From IMG/VR virus record IMGVR_UViG_3300023119_000095, positions 1 to 27,654 of that record: a stretch of DNA of 27,654 bases; one strand, written 5' to 3'. Positions 1-7,915 of the stretch are shown here, piece by piece. How positions within the stretch are numbered: position 1 is the first letter of the stretch; each line of letters starts with the position of its first letter. The notes beneath the pieces are model-generated. The model worked only from the letters and a program-made list of their open reading frames with translations. It was not told where the DNA came from and made no database searches. This stretch comes from a virus. A program made the position numbers and the translations under genes.

Positions 1-85
1 CAAGTACGGTACCGAGATGCCCAGCAACCAGCTGTTTGCGGACAAGTCGCTTGCATACTATGACATAGGTGCAAGCGAACACTAA
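1..85 (+). CDS. C-terminal end of an upstream gene (partial)
   Basis: An open frame enters from the left edge (first complete codon at position 2) and stops at TAA 83-85. Only 27 residues are visible, ending in SLAYYDIGASEH. The fragment has no recognisable motif, so no function can be given. It lies on the same strand as the amidotransferase gene and is separated from it by 69 bases that hold a repeated C-rich element, so the two may be separate transcription units. The frame is open across the whole fragment and codon use looks normal, but with so little sequence it could be a chance frame. Confidence 0.55.
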   Translation, partial: KYGTEMPSNQLFADKSLAYYDIGASEH

Positions 86-91
86 GTGTGG

Positions 92-135
92 GTGCGTCAA
101 TAGCACAAGCACTAGTACCCCCCCCCGAGTAGAAC
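92..135 (+). promoter_or_regulatory. C9 upstream element, copy 1
   Basis: The 18-base string CCCCCCCCCGAGTAGAAC lies at 118-135 and recurs exactly at 1411-1428. A second shared word, GTGCGTCAA, lies upstream of it at 92-100 and recurs at 1358-1366. The spacing between the two words differs: 17 bases here and 44 bases in the other copy. Both copies sit directly upstream of a ribosome binding site and a + strand start, here GAAAGGAG at 141-148 and ATG at 155. Placement resembles the start-associated sequences known in some actinophages, but the sequence is different and its function is unknown. It could be a promoter part, a translation element or a slippery tract. Confidence 0.6.
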
Positions 136-154
136 TAATAGAAAGGAGCCGCCT

Positions 155-1204
155 ATGTGTGGTATTGCAGGGTTCAGCTTGACACCCAATTCCAAAGTCA
201 AGTCCCGCCAGCTAGCTAACGCTATGTTGACGGCTATCGAAGACAGAGGCTACATGGCATCTGGCTTTGCCTATTCACATGACGGTGCTATGGGTTACCA
301 CTCAGCACCACAGCCCGGCAGTAGCTTGTCACTCAAGTTCATGCCTCGCAAAGCACGCACGGTTATCTTGCATACCCGTCTTGCTACCCACGGTTCAGTC
401 AATGACAACCGTAACAATCATCCAGTTATCTCGCCTGACGGCAACATTGCACTCGTACACAACGGTGTCATCTACAACCATGACCAAGTGCGTGAGACTA
501 TCTCATGCCAGTTGCCAGCTGTTGACACCAGTGTTATTCCAGCTACTATCGAGCAACACGGTATCTCTAGCCTTGACCGCCTTGACGGTGATGCAGCTAT
601 TGCATGGCTCGACAAGCGTGACCCTGACACCTTGCACCTTGCTAGGTATCAGCACTCACCGCTCTGTGTTGCACACATCGAGGACGGCTCGTTCGTCTTC
701 GCTAGTACCGAGCAGTTGCTATGGCGTGTACTTATTCAGCTTGACCTCGTGCCCACATGGATGCACGAGCCTAACGAGCTTGACTACTACACAATCAAGC
801 ACGGTGTTATCAACAGTACACAGATGCTACCCGAGCCACAGTTCTCAGGCTATGGCAACTACAACTACAACTACTACCGTCACCAGACTTCCGGTGCCAA
901 AGGCTCGGAGTCTGCCTACCTTGACAAGTACGACATGTGGGACGATGAGGAGGATTGGGAGTTCCCAAAAGTATTGGCTACCCCCGAGGTCTCTAGTCCT
1001 CCCAACAAGTATTGGATAGAGGTCAAGGAAGACATCGAGCAGGCCAGCAACTTCATCTACTACTCAGAAGAAGATAGAGAGTGGTGGGTCAACGAGCTAT
1101 ACTTCATAGCCCAAGAGCCAGGCGTCAGCCTGTTGGACTATGGCAATGTCACTAAGTCGGGCGACTTAGTGTCCACGAAGCACACGCATAGCGATGTGTT
1201 CTAA
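155..1204 (+). CDS. class II glutamine amidotransferase domain protein
   Basis: The protein has 349 residues. It starts MCGIAGF, so removal of Met would expose Cys2 as the N-terminal nucleophile of a class II (Ntn-hydrolase) glutaminase. The other family landmarks follow in order: HTRLATHG near 73-80 (substrate Arg), NHP near 88-90, HNG at 102-104 (oxyanion hole) and Asp124 in the AVDTS stretch. Known relatives (GlmS, PurF, AsnB) hydrolyse glutamine and pass ammonia to a second domain. Here the glutaminase fold ends around residue 200, and the remaining ~150 residues are acidic and rich in Tyr and Trp, unlike a sugar isomerase or phosphoribosyltransferase. The acceptor is therefore unknown and may be a separate protein or a nucleotide/DNA modification partner outside the window. 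The start is supported by GAAAGGAG at 141-148. The gene is followed by tandem hairpins. Confidence 0.85.
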   Translation: MCGIAGFSLTPNSKVKSRQLANAMLTAIEDRGYMASGFAYSHDGAMGYHSAPQPGSSLSLKFMPRKARTVILHTRLATHGSVNDNRNNHPVISPDGNIALVHNGVIYNHDQVRETISCQLPAVDTSVIPATIEQHGISSLDRLDGDAAIAWLDKRDPDTLHLARYQHSPLCVAHIEDGSFVFASTEQLLWRVLIQLDLVPTWMHEPNELDYYTIKHGVINSTQMLPEPQFSGYGNYNYNYYRHQTSGAKGSESAYLDKYDMWDDEEDWEFPKVLATPEVSSPPNKYWIEVKEDIEQASNFIYYSEEDREWWVNELYFIAQEPGVSLLDYGNVTKSGDLVSTKHTHSDVF

Positions 1205-1206
1205 CC

Positions 1207-1246
1207 ACAATCACAGGCACTTGTTGGGATTAGCAGCTGTGATTGT
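1207..1246 (+). terminator. hairpin directly after the amidotransferase gene
   Basis: ACAATCACAG (1207-1216) and CTGTGATTGT (1237-1246) are perfect 10-base inverted repeats around a 20-base loop, beginning two bases after the TAA stop. No T-run follows, so it is not a textbook intrinsic terminator. Actinobacteria often use hairpins without a U-tract, so a terminator or 3'-end stabiliser is a reasonable reading. Confidence 0.45.
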
Positions 1247-1249
1247 CAG

Positions 1250-1292
1250 CCTCACTACAGCAGTCTTTATCCTTTCTCCTGCTGTAGTGGGG
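1250..1292 (+). terminator. second tandem hairpin, possible terminator
   Basis: CACTACAGCAG (1253-1263) pairs perfectly with CTGCTGTAGTG (1279-1289). The stem extends outward to 1250/1292 with one G-U pair, giving about 14 pairs and a 15-base pyrimidine-rich loop. It lies three bases after the first hairpin. As before there is no T-run downstream (GGCACCCC follows). Two strong tandem stems after a gene suggest a double terminator or a processed structured RNA. Confidence 0.45.
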
Positions 1293-1311
1293 CACCCCAA
1301 TAATTAGAACT

Positions 1312-1342
1312 CTAGCTAGGTATCTAGACACTGCCTAGTTAG
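1312..1342 (+). other. third hairpin, CTAG-rich
   Basis: CTAGCTAGG (1312-1320) pairs with CCTAGTTAG (1334-1342), nine pairs with one G-U, around a 13-base loop. Four CTAG tetramers occur at 1312, 1316, 1324 and 1335. A smaller stem, GCCTGCG/CGCAAGGC with one bulged base (1382-1399), lies further on, just before the second C9 element. The whole 1205-1441 gap (237 bases) holds no convincing coding frame and no tRNA fold that I can make out; it is best described as structured non-coding sequence. Its role is unknown. Confidence 0.4.
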
Positions 1343-1357
1343 CGTGCGGTGGCTTGA

Positions 1358-1428
1358 GTGCGTCAAACTAAAGCAAGTCCTGCCTGCGGTACGCAAGGCC
1401 CAGGTGGGCACCCCCCCCCGAGTAGAAC
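1358..1428 (+). promoter_or_regulatory. C9 upstream element, copy 2
   Basis: GTGCGTCAA at 1358-1366 and CCCCCCCCCGAGTAGAAC at 1411-1428 match copy 1 exactly, with a 44-base spacer that contains a small stem-loop at 1382-1399. An AGGAG ribosome binding site (1429-1433) follows at once, then the ATG of the first small gene at 1442. A GTG inside the GTGCGTCAA word opens a longer frame into the gene, but the peptide it would add is just the translated repeat and spacer, so that start is rejected. Confidence 0.6.
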
Positions 1429-1441
1429 AGGAGTATTACCA

Positions 1442-1660
1442 ATGCAGATGTTTCATTTCAAAGTAATCAAGACGACTGTCCTCTTAGAGGACATAAGTGG
1501 AGAGAATTACGATGATGCCGTAAATACACTTGAAGCTAGGCTAAAGAACTACAAGTCCTACGACCGCTTCAAGGACACCGAATGGGATTACCACCTAATG
1601 AGCTCCAACCCAATGGAGCTAAATGAAGAACTACACATGTGGACGGAGGTAAAGCAGTGA
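1442..1660 (+). CDS. small hypothetical phage protein (72 aa)
   Basis: I do not recognise this protein. It begins MQMFHFKVIKTT and has an apparent beta-strand start followed by a helix (YDDAVNTLEARLKNY), then an acidic, Trp-containing tail. The layout of strand, strand, 'xxAxxxLE' helix is loosely similar to the small DpnD/PcfM-like proteins downstream, but identity is too low to claim homology. The ATG at 1442 is chosen because AGGAG lies eight bases upstream. The GTG at 1358 in the same frame lies in a regulatory repeat. It is the first gene of the tiny-gene cassette and its TGA stop overlaps the next start (GTGA). Confidence 0.7.
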   Translation: MQMFHFKVIKTTVLLEDISGENYDDAVNTLEARLKNYKSYDRFKDTEWDYHLMSSNPMELNEELHMWTEVKQ

Positions 1661-1887
1661 AAAAAATCACAGGCTTTGGCCTCAACGTCTGGATGAAAGT
1701 ACCCAACACTTGGGCTATGGCTGTCTACCCCGATTATGACGGCCGCACAGATTCAGATACATGGCTAACAGTAGAAGCTACCCACGACAGAGTTGCCCGC
1801 TATCTAGAGATAGCTGACGATGACGATTGGTGGGTATACGACAAAGACCCACAGTTTCACTACATCTTGTGGGGAGAGGAGAAATAA
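1657..1887 (+). CDS. small acidic hypothetical protein (76 aa)
   Basis: Unrecognised protein rich in Trp, Tyr and Asp: the motifs LNVWMKVPNTWAMAVYP and a central EIADDDDWWVYD run are notable. There is no signal peptide or membrane segment. GTG 1657 is chosen because GGAGG (1645-1649) lies seven bases upstream and because the start overlaps the previous stop as GTGA, indicating coupled translation. An in-frame GTG at 1639 would place the ribosome binding site inside the gene. Small, acidic, aromatic-rich early phage proteins often bind host proteins, but that is only an analogy here. The stop TAA overlaps the next ATG. Confidence 0.7.
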   Translation: MKKITGFGLNVWMKVPNTWAMAVYPDYDGRTDSDTWLTVEATHDRVARYLEIADDDDWWVYDKDPQFHYILWGEEK

Positions 1888-2060
1888 TGGCAACATTCAC
1901 AATCAAGATTGAGCAGATTGACAACGGCTTTGTTGTCGTAGATGCTGAGTCACGACAAGAAGCAAAAGATAAAGCCAGGGAGCTTTGGTATGAAGGCGTG
2001 ACCAATTGGACAGACGGCGACATCAAGCTCTCAGTAGCAGAGGAGGAGACAGTTGGGTAG
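1887..2060 (+). CDS. DpnD/PcfM-like small protein (57 aa)
   Basis: The sequence MATFTIKIEQIDNG, then VVVDAES, then QEAKDKARELWYEG and a final acidic strand fits the DpnD/PcfM-like pattern: strand, strand, 'A.s..EA...A' helix, 'D' strand. The biochemical role of that family is unclear. ATG 1887 forms a TAATG overlap with the previous stop and has a purine-rich GGGGAGAGGAG ribosome binding region just upstream; a longer frame from 1827 would overlap the preceding gene by 60 bases. A diverged paralogue appears to lie at 2626-2823. Family assignment is from pattern memory and is moderate. Confidence 0.65.
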   Translation: MATFTIKIEQIDNGFVVVDAESRQEAKDKARELWYEGVTNWTDGDIKLSVAEEETVG

Positions 2061-2157
2061 CCAGTATGAAGAAGATGAGGTAAACAGCCTGCACGAGTTT
2101 ATGCGAGAAGAAGCTGAAGCTCGTGAAAATGAAGATGAGCTAGAGGAGGAGGAGTAG
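2053..2157 (+). CDS. 34-residue acidic small ORF with strong RBS
   Basis: This frame begins at TTG 2053, six bases after AGGAGG (2041-2046), and ends at TAG 2155-2157. The peptide is extremely acidic: it starts GSQYEEDEVNSLHEF after the initiator and ends in a run of Glu, with MREEAEARENED between, probably a single charged helix. It overlaps the previous gene's 3' end by eight bases and its stop shares a base with the next GTG, so it fills exactly the space between two coupled neighbours. That placement and the strong ribosome binding site are the main support; the peptide alone is too short and too low in complexity to identify. Confidence 0.5.
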   Translation: MGSQYEEDEVNSLHEFMREEAEARENEDELEEEE

Positions 2158-2414
2158 TGCATAGATTTGTGTACCCCAAGATAGATGACGGGCCTGTCGA
2201 GGTCGAGTGCATCCACAATCGTGAGCTAGTCAAGACGGTTGACACCTCGCAACTATTCTTTGCTTTTGGCGAAGACTTCAACAAAAAGTTTGATATTGAC
2301 ACGAGGGCTGGTGAGCTGGCAGTATACTCACCAACCTTTGAAGAAGAACTCGGGTGTGCGTGGGTCGCTCAAGCATCCGATTTTATTGATAGCGACACAA
2401 GGAGACAAGAATGA
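2157..2414 (+). CDS. small hypothetical protein (85 aa)
   Basis: Unrecognised. It begins at GTG 2157, which shares its G with the TAG of the 34-residue frame, and lies just behind a GAGGAGGAGGAG purine tract that can act as ribosome binding site while also encoding the Glu run of its neighbour. The protein has alternating hydrophobic strands (VHRFVYPKID, LVKTVDTSQLFFAFG) and an acidic C-terminal half ending DSDTRRQE. It has one Cys and no metal motif or membrane segment. The TGA stop overlaps the next ATG (ATGA), so it belongs to the same coupled operon. Confidence 0.65.
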   Translation: MHRFVYPKIDDGPVEVECIHNRELVKTVDTSQLFFAFGEDFNKKFDIDTRAGELAVYSPTFEEELGCAWVAQASDFIDSDTRRQE

Positions 2415-2626
2415 CCAAGGGATACAAGAAGGTAGCTAAGTTCAACATTGAGCTACCGGACATTTGGCACCTCGGTCACCGCAAGGTTGGTAAGGCAGAG
2501 ACCTTGGCAATCATTAGCGGTGTTCGACCTGTCAAGGTTATGTTCACCAGCAAGGACGGCATCAGCGTACTCAAGGCTGAGGACGACACCTACTACACCA
2601 CCTCAGACCGCAGGCTAATTGTCTAA
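2411..2626 (+). CDS. small basic hypothetical protein (71 aa)
   Basis: Unrecognised. Unlike its neighbours it is basic, with Lys/Arg-rich segments (MTKGYKKVAKFNIEL at the start, TSDRRLIV at the end) and a probable beta-rich core (VRPVKVMFTSKDGISVLKAEDDTYYTT). This strand pattern is compatible with a small SH3-like or OB-like barrel that could bind nucleic acid, but no specific family is evident. GGAGACAAGA upstream supplies the ribosome binding site, the ATG overlaps the previous TGA, and the TAA overlaps the following ATG as TAATG. Confidence 0.65.
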   Translation: MTKGYKKVAKFNIELPDIWHLGHRKVGKAETLAIISGVRPVKVMFTSKDGISVLKAEDDTYYTTSDRRLIV

Positions 2627-2823
2627 TGCCGAGGTTCGAGGTAACTCTTACCGAAGATGTTTACCACACCATTGTCGTGGAGGCAGCCACCAAGAGCGTG
2701 GCTGCTGACATGGCATGGGAGATAATGCAGACTGAAGGTAAGGACAAGTTCAAGTCAGACGATTCGGAGTTTCAGGAGTATGCCCACATTGAAGAACTCG
2801 AAGACGAAGAAGCCTACAGCTAG
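2626..2823 (+). CDS. DpnD/PcfM-like small protein, paralogue (65 aa)
   Basis: The N-terminal half (MPRFEVTLTEDVYHTIVVEAATKSVAADMAWEI, shown here only as its pattern F.V.L.E...VVEA...A.dmA) lines up with the 1887-2060 product at Phe4, the two strands, the VV-x-A motif and the following Ala-rich helix. The C-terminal half is more acidic (SDDSEF, EELEDEEAYS). The two genes therefore look like a diverged tandem family. ATG 2626 overlaps the previous TAA. Function is unknown; the alignment by eye is suggestive, not decisive. Confidence 0.65.
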   Translation: MPRFEVTLTEDVYHTIVVEAATKSVAADMAWEIMQTEGKDKFKSDDSEFQEYAHIEELEDEEAYS

Positions 2824-2983
2824 CTTCACGAGCTACCGCACGCTAGAGCGTGCAGTCAAGTTCATCTTTCCAGATGCAATTTTGACTACTGACCAAGATG
2901 GTGAGATAATCATTCTCACAGGCTATAAGGAGAAAAAAGATGGAAGAGTCAGAGCCTACGACTACCTCCCCAAAAAGGTTTGA
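2780..2983 (+). CDS. small hypothetical protein (about 64-67 aa)
   Basis: Unrecognised. The informative part begins after the overlap with the preceding gene: SFTSYRTLERAVKFIFPDAI, then a DQDGEIIILTGY strand-turn-strand and a basic C-terminus (YKEKKDGRVRAYDYLPKKV). The start is uncertain: ATG 2780 is only one base from AGGAG (2774-2778), whereas TTG 2789 has a ten-base spacing from it. Either way it overlaps the preceding gene by 35-44 bases. The strand-turn 'DG' and positive tail could suit a nucleic-acid or protein adaptor, but this is not evidence of function. Confidence 0.55.
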   Translation: MPTLKNSKTKKPTASFTSYRTLERAVKFIFPDAILTTDQDGEIIILTGYKEKKDGRVRAYDYLPKKV

Positions 2984-3203
2984 GTACTCAGTAAATACCA
3001 TTTACTCTGTTCACGCCGATGATGGCAGGACAGCTGACAAGCTGTTCGAAGATGCCAGGGATAGACAAATCTTTACTGACCAGGTAATCATTGCTCAAGA
3101 GATTGTCCGCAGGCTTGAGGAAATACCAGACGGAGGTGAAAGACATTGGGTATGGAACAACACCCTAGCGAAGTGGGAGCTAACGAGGTACAGCATGAGC
3201 TAA
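2940..3203 (+). CDS. small hypothetical protein (87 aa)
   Basis: Unrecognised. AAGGAG at 2928-2933 precedes ATG 2940. After a Ser/Thr/Pro-rich leader the protein has a strand pair and helix (FEYSVNTIYSVHADD, then TADKLFEDARDR), which again recalls the two-strand-plus-helix plan of the DpnD-like neighbours. A long helix (VIIAQEIVRRLEEI) and a C-terminal block, RHWVWNNTLAKWELTRYS, follow. That last block reads like a small beta-hairpin with Trp residues. It overlaps the preceding gene by 44 bases and its TAA overlaps the ATG of the helix-turn-helix gene. Confidence 0.6.
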   Translation: MEESEPTTTSPKRFEYSVNTIYSVHADDGRTADKLFEDARDRQIFTDQVIIAQEIVRRLEEIPDGGERHWVWNNTLAKWELTRYSMS

Positions 3204-3382
3204 TGACTTCAGCCGAAGTTAGTGCCTACCTAGGCGTCACGCTCAACACGCTACAAAAGTGGCGTAGCCGTAACCGTGGCCCCAAATACTTCAAATACGG
3301 CGGTGCCAACAGTGCTGCCGTTCGATATGACAAGAAAGATGTGGAGCTTTACCGGACTTCACACACGATTCCAACTAAATAA
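3203..3382 (+). CDS. excisionase-like helix-turn-helix protein (59 aa)
   Basis: MTSAEVSAYLGVTLNTLQKW is a MerR/excisionase (HTH_17) DNA-binding core: helix, turn at LGVT, and recognition helix ending in KWR. It is followed by a wing-like RNRGPKYFKYGG and a VRYDKKDVELY strand, the usual ending of this family. Such proteins act as phage repressors, excisionases or recombination directionality factors. No integrase is visible, so a transcriptional role for this operon is as likely. ATG 3203 is chosen because it forms the TAATG junction seen at neighbouring genes and fits the domain start; a TTG at 3146 with GGAGG upstream would add 19 residues. Confidence 0.75.
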   Translation: MTSAEVSAYLGVTLNTLQKWRSRNRGPKYFKYGGANSAAVRYDKKDVELYRTSHTIPTK

Positions 3383-3390
3383 GGAGACAG

Positions 3391-3657
3391 ATGCGCAAGA
3401 ACAAGTACAAACTTAGTAAGAAAGATAGCGACACCGCCAGGAGCATAGTCGCGGAGATTGCCGTCAGGTACGACATTGACACCGACCGCATTACCTCAAC
3501 GATAGCGGTGAGACGTGACATTGAGGACGATGAGCTTATGTTGCGCATTGGACAACAGGTGCAGAAGTGCATGGTTACAGTGATGCCTTCTTTCAAGGAA
3601 AAGATGGAGCTTATCGACAGCATGCTTGCCAAGATGCCAGATGCCGAAGATAGCTAA
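3391..3657 (+). CDS. hypothetical helical protein (88 aa)
   Basis: Unrecognised. AAGGAG at 3381-3386 with a four-base spacer defines ATG 3391. The protein starts with a basic stretch (MRKNKYKLSKKDS), then appears largely helical (TARSIVAEIAVRYDI, MLRIGQQVQKCMVTV, FKEKMELIDSMLAKM) and ends with an acidic tail. There is a single Cys. It directly precedes the WhiB-like gene, and its stop overlaps the likely WhiB-like start by 17 bases, so the two are probably co-translated. Confidence 0.65.
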   Translation: MRKNKYKLSKKDSDTARSIVAEIAVRYDIDTDRITSTIAVRRDIEDDELMLRIGQQVQKCMVTVMPSFKEKMELIDSMLAKMPDAEDS

Positions 3658-4003
3658 GGCTTTCCTCCGTACTCGGCGTCACTATGAAATGTGGCAAGAG
3701 CTGCAGGATGCCATTGACGAGGCCCCCGAGCAGGTGCCCTGCACCAGCTACCCAGACCTCTTCTTTGGTGACGATTGGAACTCAGCAATTTCAGACTTAC
3801 GCATGGCTAAGAACATGTGCAAGAGGTGTCCTATAATGCTGCAGTGCGCCCAGTACGGACTAGAGGCAGAAGAAGAACACGGCGTTTGGGGTGGACTCAC
3901 CCCACTAGACAGAAAGAAACTCAGAAGACAACATGGCTCCTACGGGCAAGCTTCCAAAAATATCTCACTTCGTTTTAGACAGTCTAGGAGAGATGGGCTT
4001 TAG
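3641..4003 (+). CDS. WhiB-like iron-sulfur transcription regulator
   Basis: The four Wbl cysteines are present with the family spacing: C34, then C60-x2-C63 (MCKRC) and C69 (LQC), followed by the GVWGGLT turn and a basic tail (DRKKLRRQHG) that binds DNA. These proteins carry a 4Fe-4S cluster and in Actinobacteria interact with the primary sigma factor. Phage copies can down-regulate host whiB genes and affect superinfection. At about 120 residues it is a normal length. The start is uncertain: ATG 3641 overlaps the previous gene by 17 bases, while TTG 3626 or ATG 3689 are possible, and none has a good ribosome binding site. The 3' end overlaps the next gene by 71 bases. This gene is the best clue to an actinobacterial host. 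Confidence 0.88.
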   Translation: MPKIAKAFLRTRRHYEMWQELQDAIDEAPEQVPCTSYPDLFFGDDWNSAISDLRMAKNMCKRCPIMLQCAQYGLEAEEEHGVWGGLTPLDRKKLRRQHGSYGQASKNISLRFRQSRRDGL

Positions 4004-4313
4004 GCCAATCTCAGGGAGACCCTATGAATTTATTGGCACGGTCAAATCACAGTCCAGCGATTACGACATGGCTGCTTTGTTGACAGTGATGCCACTAAAG
4101 CTTCAGAATGATACATATGTTATCTCTCTGGAGATGAACGGAGAACAAATGGTCAAGTCACGGCTAGCAAAGCTAGATGACATAGCAAACCTCGTTGGCT
4201 ATGCTGGCGTGATGAAGGACATTTTGTCCACGGTTGACGGAAAGGAGAATGATGCCAACCATAAAAGAAGCAACCAAGGTGGCGGCCACCCCACAAACGG
4301 TGGTGCCAAGTAA
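3933..4313 (+). CDS. hypothetical protein (126 aa)
   Basis: Unrecognised. The middle of the protein has a beta-rich, plausible fold (RPYEFIGTVKSQSS, AALLTVMPLKL, TYVISLEMNGEQM) followed by a helix (RLAKLDDIANLVGY). The C-terminal 21 residues are Gly/Asn-rich and lie over the start of the next gene. The N-terminus overlaps the WhiB-like gene by 71 bases; an ATG at 3993 would reduce this to 11 bases, but its AGGAG is only two bases away. Long overlaps at both ends make the exact limits uncertain, although the central part is not shared with any other credible frame. Confidence 0.6.
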   Translation: MAPTGKLPKISHFVLDSLGEMGFRPISGRPYEFIGTVKSQSSDYDMAALLTVMPLKLQNDTYVISLEMNGEQMVKSRLAKLDDIANLVGYAGVMKDILSTVDGKENDANHKRSNQGGGHPTNGGAK

Positions 4314-4611
4314 CAAGGCCACCATGGTCAAGAACCTAATCAAGCAGTACAAGCAGCTTGGTGAGGAAGAAACTAAGATTCAGGAGTCTCGTGCTGCAGT
4401 GCGCGAGATGCTTGTCAACATGTTTGAGGAGGGTGCGGGTGAGCTGGTCGTAGGCAAGAAGGCTTACGCCACGCTCGCAAAGGAGAACCGCACTCTCCTC
4501 AATACAGCTCTTATCAAGAAGAGCTTCCCCCAAGAGAAGTTCTCGGACTTCTACGTGGACAGCCAAGTGACCGTGCTTCGTCTTACCAAAGAGGCGAGGT
4601 CACTTAGCTAA
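4252..4611 (+). CDS. hypothetical coiled-coil protein (119 aa)
   Basis: Unrecognised. The N-terminus is a flexible Thr/Val/Pro-rich stretch, then NLIKQYKQLGEEETKIQESR and the following residues form a helix with heptad-like hydrophobic spacing (roughly residues 28-60). A compact C-terminal part contains LVVGKKAYATL and a YVDSQVTVLRL strand pair. ATG 4252 has AAGGAG at 4242-4247. Its TAA overlaps the helicase ATG, so it is likely produced with the helicase and might be an accessory factor for replication. It overlaps the preceding gene by 62 bases. Confidence 0.7.
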   Translation: MPTIKEATKVAATPQTVVPSNKATMVKNLIKQYKQLGEEETKIQESRAAVREMLVNMFEEGAGELVVGKKAYATLAKENRTLLNTALIKKSFPQEKFSDFYVDSQVTVLRLTKEARSLS

Positions 4612-6122
4612 TGATTACTGACATCCTTTGGGAACCACAGAAAGAAGCTGTTGGTTTCATCGTTGACAACAGGCGGGTATTGCTAGCAGACCAGCCTGGC
4701 AGCGGTAAAACCTTGATGAGCCTGGCAGCCCTTGAGGTTGATGGGTGCTTCACGAACGGCGTGAGTCTTATCCTTGCTCCGAAGTTCCCAGCTAAGACCA
4801 CATGGCTAAAAGACCATGTCATGAGGTTCGTGGCCCCATTGGGTGTAAACGTATACGACCTGACAACTGGTACCGCTCAGGTCAAGAACGACAGGCTGCG
4901 GGGCGTAAAAAGCCCCGCGGTCATTGTCGCTAACCACGATGCACTCGCCATTTCCCCTAACGGCGAGCGCCGAGTACCGGCACTATTCGAACAGATTTAT
5001 GACGCCATTGTGATTGACGAGTCACACCGAGTTCTGCCAACGGCGACAGACTCGACGTATAACATGACACAATTCTGGCGTGGGCTGAAGAAGCTCAAGA
5101 CCAGCCAAGACCCACTGCGTGTTGCTGTCAGCGGTACGCCTGACCGCAGCAAGTTGGAGAACCGTTACGGCACACTCAAGTTTCTTTTCCCAGAGGTGTA
5201 CACCAATCATCAGTACTGGATGTACACAAACTTCATTATGCGTAACCAGACAATCAGACTTCCTGGCGGCCGAACTCGGGACATCGTTGTGCCCGAGCAG
5301 CTCCGCTCCCCCTCGGACTGGGTCGCCAGGGACAAGCTTTACCTCATCCGCCGTACCAAGGCAGAGATTCAAAAGGGCAGGCCACCCAAGCAGTACATCA
5401 ATGTGGTGCTTGACATGGAGAAACCTCAGAAGAAGTCATACATGGAGATGTTCAAGGCCTTCTTCTCTGGTCGCTCAAAGCAATCAGCAGCCGTCACTGC
5501 TCTTCGCAGTAGGCAGCTGGCAATTACTTCTGGATGGGACTTTGACAACAACCAAGTTGGCAACTCCTTTTCCAGCAACAAGTTCAACTGGTTAGTTGAA
5601 TGGCTCGAAGCTAGAGGCTACATGGAATCCGTTGCTTCTTCCGAATCCGATGGCGACATCTCTTTCCCGTCAAAGGTGGTAGTAGCCTCTAGCTTCGTTG
5701 CAGTACTCAACTGGCTCAAGCGAGAACTCGCTAAGCTAGGCGTCGAGGCCGAGATACTTGACGGCTCTACGTCTCAGACAGAGCGTGCTCGCATTCAGGC
5801 AGCATTCCAAGACCAGTCAAATAGTCTGAGGGTAGTGCTACTATCCATGAACATGGGAGTTGGCATCGACTTGGACGCAGCGGACGACTTAGTGTTCTTT
5901 GACGTTCCGTATTCGTCTGACGATGCAGAACAGGTAGAAGACCGCATCGACCGCCTGTCCCGAATCCACCGTGTAACTATCTGGTGGTTGCTGTCAAGCG
6001 ACAGTATTGACCTCGCCATAGCTGGCGAAAACTCAGAGCGATTCACTCTGTCCCGAGAGCTGCTTGACGGCTCTCGTGGCATTGACTTTGCCAGACAAGT
6101 GCTCGCTCAACTAAGGAGATAA
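4611..6122 (+). CDS. SF2 DEAD/SNF2-like DNA helicase
   Basis: This 503-residue protein has the two RecA-like lobes of superfamily 2. A Q-motif-like WEPQKEAV opens the protein, Walker A is DQPGSGKT (27-34), Walker B is VIDESH (134-139, a DEAH/DESH box) and motif III is SGTP (174-177). The second lobe contains KVVVASSF, the MNMGVGIDL segment (motif V) and EQVEDRIDRLSRIH (motif VI), the usual arrangement of SNF2/SWI2-type phage helicases. Its likely work is ATP-driven DNA translocation or unwinding at replication forks or recombination intermediates in the host cytoplasm. It starts at a TAATG junction and is followed with no gap by the next ATG, opening the replication module. Confidence 0.88.
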   Translation: MITDILWEPQKEAVGFIVDNRRVLLADQPGSGKTLMSLAALEVDGCFTNGVSLILAPKFPAKTTWLKDHVMRFVAPLGVNVYDLTTGTAQVKNDRLRGVKSPAVIVANHDALAISPNGERRVPALFEQIYDAIVIDESHRVLPTATDSTYNMTQFWRGLKKLKTSQDPLRVAVSGTPDRSKLENRYGTLKFLFPEVYTNHQYWMYTNFIMRNQTIRLPGGRTRDIVVPEQLRSPSDWVARDKLYLIRRTKAEIQKGRPPKQYINVVLDMEKPQKKSYMEMFKAFFSGRSKQSAAVTALRSRQLAITSGWDFDNNQVGNSFSSNKFNWLVEWLEARGYMESVASSESDGDISFPSKVVVASSFVAVLNWLKRELAKLGVEAEILDGSTSQTERARIQAAFQDQSNSLRVVLLSMNMGVGIDLDAADDLVFFDVPYSSDDAEQVEDRIDRLSRIHRVTIWWLLSSDSIDLAIAGENSERFTLSRELLDGSRGIDFARQVLAQLRR

Positions 6123-7841: not shown

Positions 7842-7858
7842 TTTGCTACACTAGGGTA

Positions 7859-7894
7859 GACCCCGAGAGTTTCGTCTCCTTTTCTCTCGGGGTC
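7859..7894 (+). terminator. hairpin between DNA-binding gene and primase
   Basis: GACCCCGAGAG (7859-7869) and CTCTCGGGGTC (7884-7894) form a perfect 11-base GC-rich stem with a 14-base pyrimidine-rich loop. The sequence after it (ACTCTCTTCT) is pyrimidine-rich but not a clean T-run. It may terminate or attenuate transcription before the primase gene, or mark an RNA processing site. Confidence 0.55.
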
Positions 7895-7915
7895 ACTCTC
7901 TTCTAAGGAGTTAAA

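Follow-up and report, generated by a model that had tools for sequence, protein, structure and literature searches.

The sequence C9GAGTAGAAC, found twice in the 27,654-base stretch of viral DNA analysed here (the window), would belong to an RNA leader that separates two genes on a single polycistronic phage mRNA. We put at roughly even the chances that this is a clade-specific, low-copy start-associated leader, in which an intercistronic RNA hairpin is joined to the translation-initiation region. By sequence, the conserved order runs from the upstream stop codon through a hairpin at a fixed position, a C-rich or mixed linker, the purine-rich box GRRTAGAAM and the Shine-Dalgarno sequence (SD) to the ATG. 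Within this layout, the box would be the conserved part and the C-run only loosely constrained, and the upstream word GTGCGTCAA would be just a stem-loop part at one site. The sites are few, and the leader reading is built on sequence and predicted folds.

The window, a virus record that is linear in IMG/VR, is probably a fragment of a larger genome. It encodes TerL, a D5-type primase, an SNF2-type helicase, WhiB, an HTH protein and a class II glutamine amidotransferase (GATase). Among cultured phages the best TerL identity is 47%, to Arthrobacter phages, a comparison that identifies the window as a putative piece of an uncultured actinophage. The presence of WhiB points to an actinobacterial host. 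Neither a tRNA nor an Rfam RNA was found in the window, and no Rfam 15 covariance model matched anywhere in it at gathering score. The gene behind the second site, orf1442, gave no match in the Pfam and PHROG profile comparison.

Table 1. Features of the two leaders and of the primase leader in the window.
Feature	Position	Strand	Evidence or comparison
Hairpin 1, begins at the upstream gene's stop codon (83-85); loop GUCAAUA	81..116	+	MFE -15.3, z -2.2
C9 run, site 1, directly 3' of hairpin 1	118..126	+	sequence; C8 in G002
Box GAGTAGAAC, site 1	127..135	+	family consensus GRRTAGAAM
Extended Shine-Dalgarno AGAAAGGAG of the GATase gene	140..148	+	sequence; ATG at 155
Gene 1: GATase (GATase_6/GATase_7)	155..1204	+	Pfam 1.8e-23; phrog_14519 1.4e-36
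Hairpin A, after the GATase stop; loop end GGATTAGCAG common to G002 despite different stems	1207..1246	+	sequence comparison, fold
Hairpin B: 15-position stem, 14 Watson-Crick pairs, loop TCTTTATCCTTTCTC	1249..1293	+	fold, G002 comparison
Degenerate extra copy CACCCCAATAATTAGAAC, directly after hairpin B	1293..1310	+	sequence; G002 has C8GAGTAGAAC here
Segment missing from G002, bounded by GGGCACCCC direct repeats	1311..1410	+	window/G002 comparison; fold z -0.5
C9 run, site 2	1411..1419	+	sequence; C8 in G002
Box GAGTAGAAC, site 2	1420..1428	+	same in G002; GAATAGAAA in G003/G009
Shine-Dalgarno AGGAG, abuts site 2 box	1429..1433	+	sequence; ATG at 1442
Gene 2: 72-aa protein, head of small-gene run	1442..1660	+	92% identical ORF in G002
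Intercistronic hairpin before the primase gene; pyrimidine loop TTTCGTCTCCTTTT	7859..7894	+	7850-7915 z -3.7

Exactly two copies of C9GAGTAGAAC are present, at 118-135 and 1411-1428, both on the + strand and both ending a few bases 5' of an SD and start codon. This confirms two exact 18-base copies before ribosome binding sites, as the sequence-only reading had reported; the sequence did not occur in 100 dinucleotide shuffles, and its repetition is far above chance. Allowing 3 mismatches gave no further copy in the window. The two C9 runs of Table 1 are the only runs of C or G of at least 7 in the window, for which 0.05 runs of at least 9 are expected. Exact identity between the copies extends over 19 nt including a leading A, with flanks beyond that show no homology, and a recent segmental duplication was rejected as the source of the repeat because identity stops at 19 nt. 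A GTG ORF (1358-1660) running through the C9 into gene 2 was also discarded, as it has no SD and is absent from G002. The SD of site 1 fits what we take to be the actinobacterial 16S 3' end, CCUCCUUUCU.

The closest record holding this region, G002 (IMGVR 3300018041_000024; GATase 94% and helicase 92% identical), carries before its GATase gene the hairpin of site 1 with GTAAATA as its loop, followed by C8 and, at the box position, GAATAGAAA; this position reads GGATAGAAC in G003 and GGATAGAAA in G009. Before its 72-aa gene, G002 has a hairpin GCCCCTATCGCAAG-loop-CTTGCGATAGGGGC, then A, C8 and GAGTAGAAC. In G003 and G009, with GATases 62% identical to that of the window, the gene is preceded by a hairpin, GTC, GGATAGAA, C or A, and the SD, and followed by strong hairpins, a C-rich stretch, CGAATAGAAA and an SD. 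The relatives at 94% and 62% GATase identity thus share the same two starts with hairpin, C-rich stretch, GRRTAGAAM, SD and ATG. In all four genomes the box stands at homologous starts, always on the + strand and 5' of the SD, at 13 to about 29 nt from the ATG. Site 2 precedes orf1442 in the window and G002 and an orf2157 homologue in G003 and G009, and these different genes tie the box to the operon-head position rather than to one gene. The C-run measures 9 at both window sites and 8 at both G002 sites, and is short in G003 and G009; the 9/9 versus 8/8 difference is ordinary homopolymer divergence. Near-identical records (L006, L016-L019) are 99.0-99.9% identical over overlaps that all lie outside both C9 sites.

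The window and G002 differ in length before site 2. After hairpin B the window reads GGGGCACCCCAATAATTAGAAC and G002 reads GGGGCACCCCCCCCGAGTAGAAC, and about 110 bases past GGGGCACCCCAATAATTAGAAC the window has GGTGGGCACCCCCCCCCGAGTAGAAC. Since GGGCACCCC repeats bound the extra segment, the simple account would be recombination between them that either deleted it from G002 or inserted it into the window. The strong hairpins before site 2 of the window end 118 nt 5' of the C9, and no significant fold was obtained for the segment adjoining the site (1312-1428; z -0.5). These bounding repeats, the exact 19-nt identity without longer homology and the differing gene content at site 2 would all suit a relic of recombination or mosaicism, that is, a short sequence shared by the borders of modules, which exchange has distributed and which has no regulatory role. 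We find such a relic rather improbable, given that the box is kept at corresponding starts, on the same side of the SD, at only 62% GATase identity, and that the flanking noncoding DNA is not kept where the box is.

Start-associated copies number two in the window and about three in each of G002, G003 and G009. A lack of further copies would have counted against the sequence-only reading, but relatives do have them, as homologous sites and as a third GAGTAGAAC in G002, at 1038 in the control region. The control regions of G003 and G009 contain a looser GGGTAGAAA; in these relatives the third copy or GGGTAGAAA precedes the first genes, and the corresponding region lies left of this window. The G002 control region (L094/L095, oriented; 640-1050) also has several TTATCCACA DnaA-like boxes and, just 5' of the third GAGTAGAAC, CGAACATTTGTTCG, a LexA/SOS-type palindrome of Gram-positive bacteria. 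Other box occurrences in G002, G003 and G009 are few and mostly coding or on the opposite strand. In G006 and G008 (46%), long hairpins precede the GATase gene and the box is absent before it; box occurrences in G004-G008 were rejected, being only inside predicted ORFs.

Pattern scans for C7GAGTAGAAC, CCCCYCGARTAGAAM-N0-22-AGGAG and C8GARTAGAA in IMG/VR and for C9GARTAGAAC in GTDB returned clade members plus a handful of unrelated isolated matches. As judged from these scans, the combination is limited to this small clade and the motif is not a widespread family. One match (L196) lies inside a predicted tail-type coding ORF, another (L001) looks coding, and single sites in unrelated contigs (L192, L194, L197-L199, L002) were treated as chance. 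In L192 (IMGVR 3300035520_000350, 243 kb), an unrelated large phage contig, C11GAATAGAAC (3989-4004) stands before an SD, and a further long G-run lies near the next ORF's start. CCCCGARTAGAA had no match in G011, a record that is 99.9% identical over most of the overlap and extends past the window's right end.

The upstream word GTGCGTCAA was proposed by the sequence-only reading to form, together with C9GAGTAGAAC, a bipartite promoter or regulatory element for two accessory units, possibly phase-variable by slippage. Both words do occur at both sites (GTGCGTCAA at 92-100 and 1358-1366), and the C-run length differs between relatives (9 versus 8). However, the sharing is not meaningful because GTGCGTCAA is lost at both G002 sites, with GTGCGTAAA in its place at site 1 and no counterpart at site 2. 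Chance can also explain it, as the two upstream regions have some 9-mer in common in 11% of shuffles (P about 0.11), or 1.2% within the nearest 45 and 75 nt only. At site 1 the word is the top stem strand and loop of hairpin 1, and its second occurrence falls within the segment missing from G002, without significant fold. On the + strand, no sigma-70 pair (TTGACA-N16-18-TATAAT-like) was found near 118 or 1411, and TAGAAC was rejected as a -10 for having no -35 and missing the final T (position 6). With the box of G003 and G009 standing without any long C-run, a bipartite element is very unlikely. Of the proposal there remains an element that recurs at gene starts and heads both accessory units; neither its bipartite structure nor a control of transcription is supported.

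Short repeats at gene starts have been described in cultured actinophages as Start-Associated Sequences (SAS) with Extended SAS (ESAS) in Cluster K mycobacteriophages (PMC3203893). Like the Cluster K SAS, the element is a short asymmetric conserved sequence in the ribosome-binding zone, in one orientation and one phage group, which precedes nonstructural genes from different families and in many cases directly follows an inverted repeat (PMC3203893). The location rule of the SAS, starts of unrelated genes in one orientation, holds here for GATase and for orf1442 or the orf2157 homologue. In contrast, the Cluster K SAS, GGGATAGGAGCCC, includes the SD and occurs 11-19 times per genome (PMC3203893), whereas GRRTAGAAM lies outside the SD, at about three sites and with a C-run. 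Microbacterium cluster EF phages have the SAS GGGAAAGGACCCC in 10-12 copies and ESAS centred on GTAGAG, with no C-run reported; GTAGAG is close to GTAGAA, though in 5/6 bases only, and lies beside start-associated sites in an actinophage (PMC7302621). Neither 13-bp SAS consensus is present at the two sites, where the box is followed by a separate SD. Copies number 2 in the window and about 3 in relatives, against about 10-19 per genome for SAS. A conserved 17-bp ESAS inverted repeat was not found, and the hairpins present have stems that differ between sites and relatives. Inverted repeats of ESAS have a conserved sequence and do not support pairing as RNA (PMC3203893), whereas here the stem is free and pairing is kept. 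From these sequence comparisons, the element would act as start-associated sequences do, yet it is no SAS, from which it departs in sequence, copy number and conserved inverted repeat.

Another option, one that has been proposed for ESAS repeats, is a DNA operator, stoperator-like, for a phage or host regulator, with C-run and hairpin as neighbours or half-sites. An asymmetric intergenic box in one orientation, at about three sites per genome, is consistent with it, as are the WhiB and HTH proteins encoded in the window, the DnaA-like boxes and LexA-type palindrome near the box in the G002 control region, and the GTAGAG centre of the cluster EF ESAS (PMC7302621). Nonetheless, copies are very few, the box has no dyad and is close to the SD, sites 1 and 2 offer no promoter to regulate, and hairpin stems diverge with pairing kept, so that we regard an operator as unlikely.

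The hairpins lie between the upstream stop codon and the SD in 6/6 GATase-bearing genomes. The significant folds range from z -2.2 to -5.8 against shuffles. The fold of hairpin 1 also forms in G002 (z -3.6), and hairpins stand at the same place in G003, G009, G006 and G008. Positions 1205-1300 of the window reach z -5.2 and the G002 counterpart z -5.8. Hairpins A and B have arms that for the most part differ between window and G002, with nearly complete pairing and similar loops; at the position of hairpin B, G002 has a different 14-bp stem with loop TTATTTATCCTTTTCTC. No intrinsic terminator was found on the + strand in 1-4700 by a scan limited to loops of 3-8, and the stems at the sites lead into C-runs or mixed sequence, not a T-run. 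The C-run and box might be what is left of arrays of intrinsic terminators behind the upstream gene, with only the hairpins mattering, as could be suggested by C6 runs in relatives' hairpin loops and by the strong hairpins that follow the GATase stop in every relative, one of which, in G006, has a T8 tail. This is most improbable, however, with a C-run rather than a T-run coming after the stem in this clade and the G009 box staying 5' of the SD regardless of hairpin sequence.

Mechanistically, in the leader reading, the hairpin would shield the downstream cistron from upstream translation, partly terminate transcription or block decay. The segment 3' of it would be where the ribosome docks and initiates, perhaps with a factor bound there, and what the box itself does we infer within this scheme. 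Predicted unpaired probabilities are 0.49-0.78 for the box and 0.42-0.61 for the SD; accessibility is predicted to be moderate, without a clear prediction of an open docking site, which holds our confidence in the leader reading at about even. Base pairing of the site 2 box with the region of the GATase stop (GUUCUA:UAGAAC, seen in the G002 fold) is conceivable and would be another kind of RNA function; the site 1 box has no such partner.

Phage mRNAs have intercistronic hairpins that act as terminators or as processing or stability hairpins. The present leaders resemble these in their strong stem between stop codon and next ribosome binding site, and differ from them in the conserved downstream box or conserved pyrimidine-rich loops; a literature search on phage intercistronic hairpins or poly-C leaders found nothing closer. 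In the primase leader, 7 sequences are 100% paired with 4/11 pairs changed on both sides (covariation score 0.303 versus 0.103 +/- 0.034 in shuffles), and hairpins stand at the same place down to 42-44% primase identity. Quasipalindrome correction can give matching stem changes without selection, so covariation alone is no proof of RNA function. By eye, the clade's intercistronic pyrimidine loops were assigned to the mRNA-sense strand, an argument for RNA rather than DNA.

Primase leaders (window 7859-7894; L007-L014, L043, L046) vary in stem and have an invariant loop core GTCTCCTTT before the SD AAGGAG; L043 and L046 have the loop TTTTTCCTCCATTTCTC, or one closely similar, at this position. 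Their CTCCTT is complementary to this SD and resembles the 16S anti-SD tail. Further intercistronic hairpins (window 1249-1293; L008 3403-3560; L014 3313-3560; L013 4050; L106-L108 from G006) have unrelated stems and TTTCCCCCCTTTCTC-type loops on the mRNA-sense strand. We consider it doubtful, if conceivable, that all belong to a family with changing stems, whose conserved pyrimidine single strand (loop CUCCUUU / CCCCCCUUUCUC, or the C-run just outside the stem) would mimic the 16S anti-SD and pair with the next SD or be read by a factor, making starts switchable, with C9 as one variant.

In another phage lineage (L118, L120, L122, L124, L126, L127, L129, L131, L133, L134), the GATase leader lies 3' of TTGACA-N17-TAAACT promoters and contains a hairpin of 5 bp with a GGAY tetraloop, whose stems covary (GGCTC, GACTC, GAGCC, GAGCA, GACCC). 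That hairpin is directly before the start, with a GGA near the SD directly 3', a layout that recalls CsrA-type sites.

Start-associated repeats are known in several cultured actinobacteriophage clusters, where their function is not established, and a case from an uncultured clade in which the box is kept, the C-run varies and the stem is free to change narrows the roles that such leaders may have. The anti-SD-like loops in intercistronic hairpins may provide a separate lead on how the translation of neighbouring genes is set.
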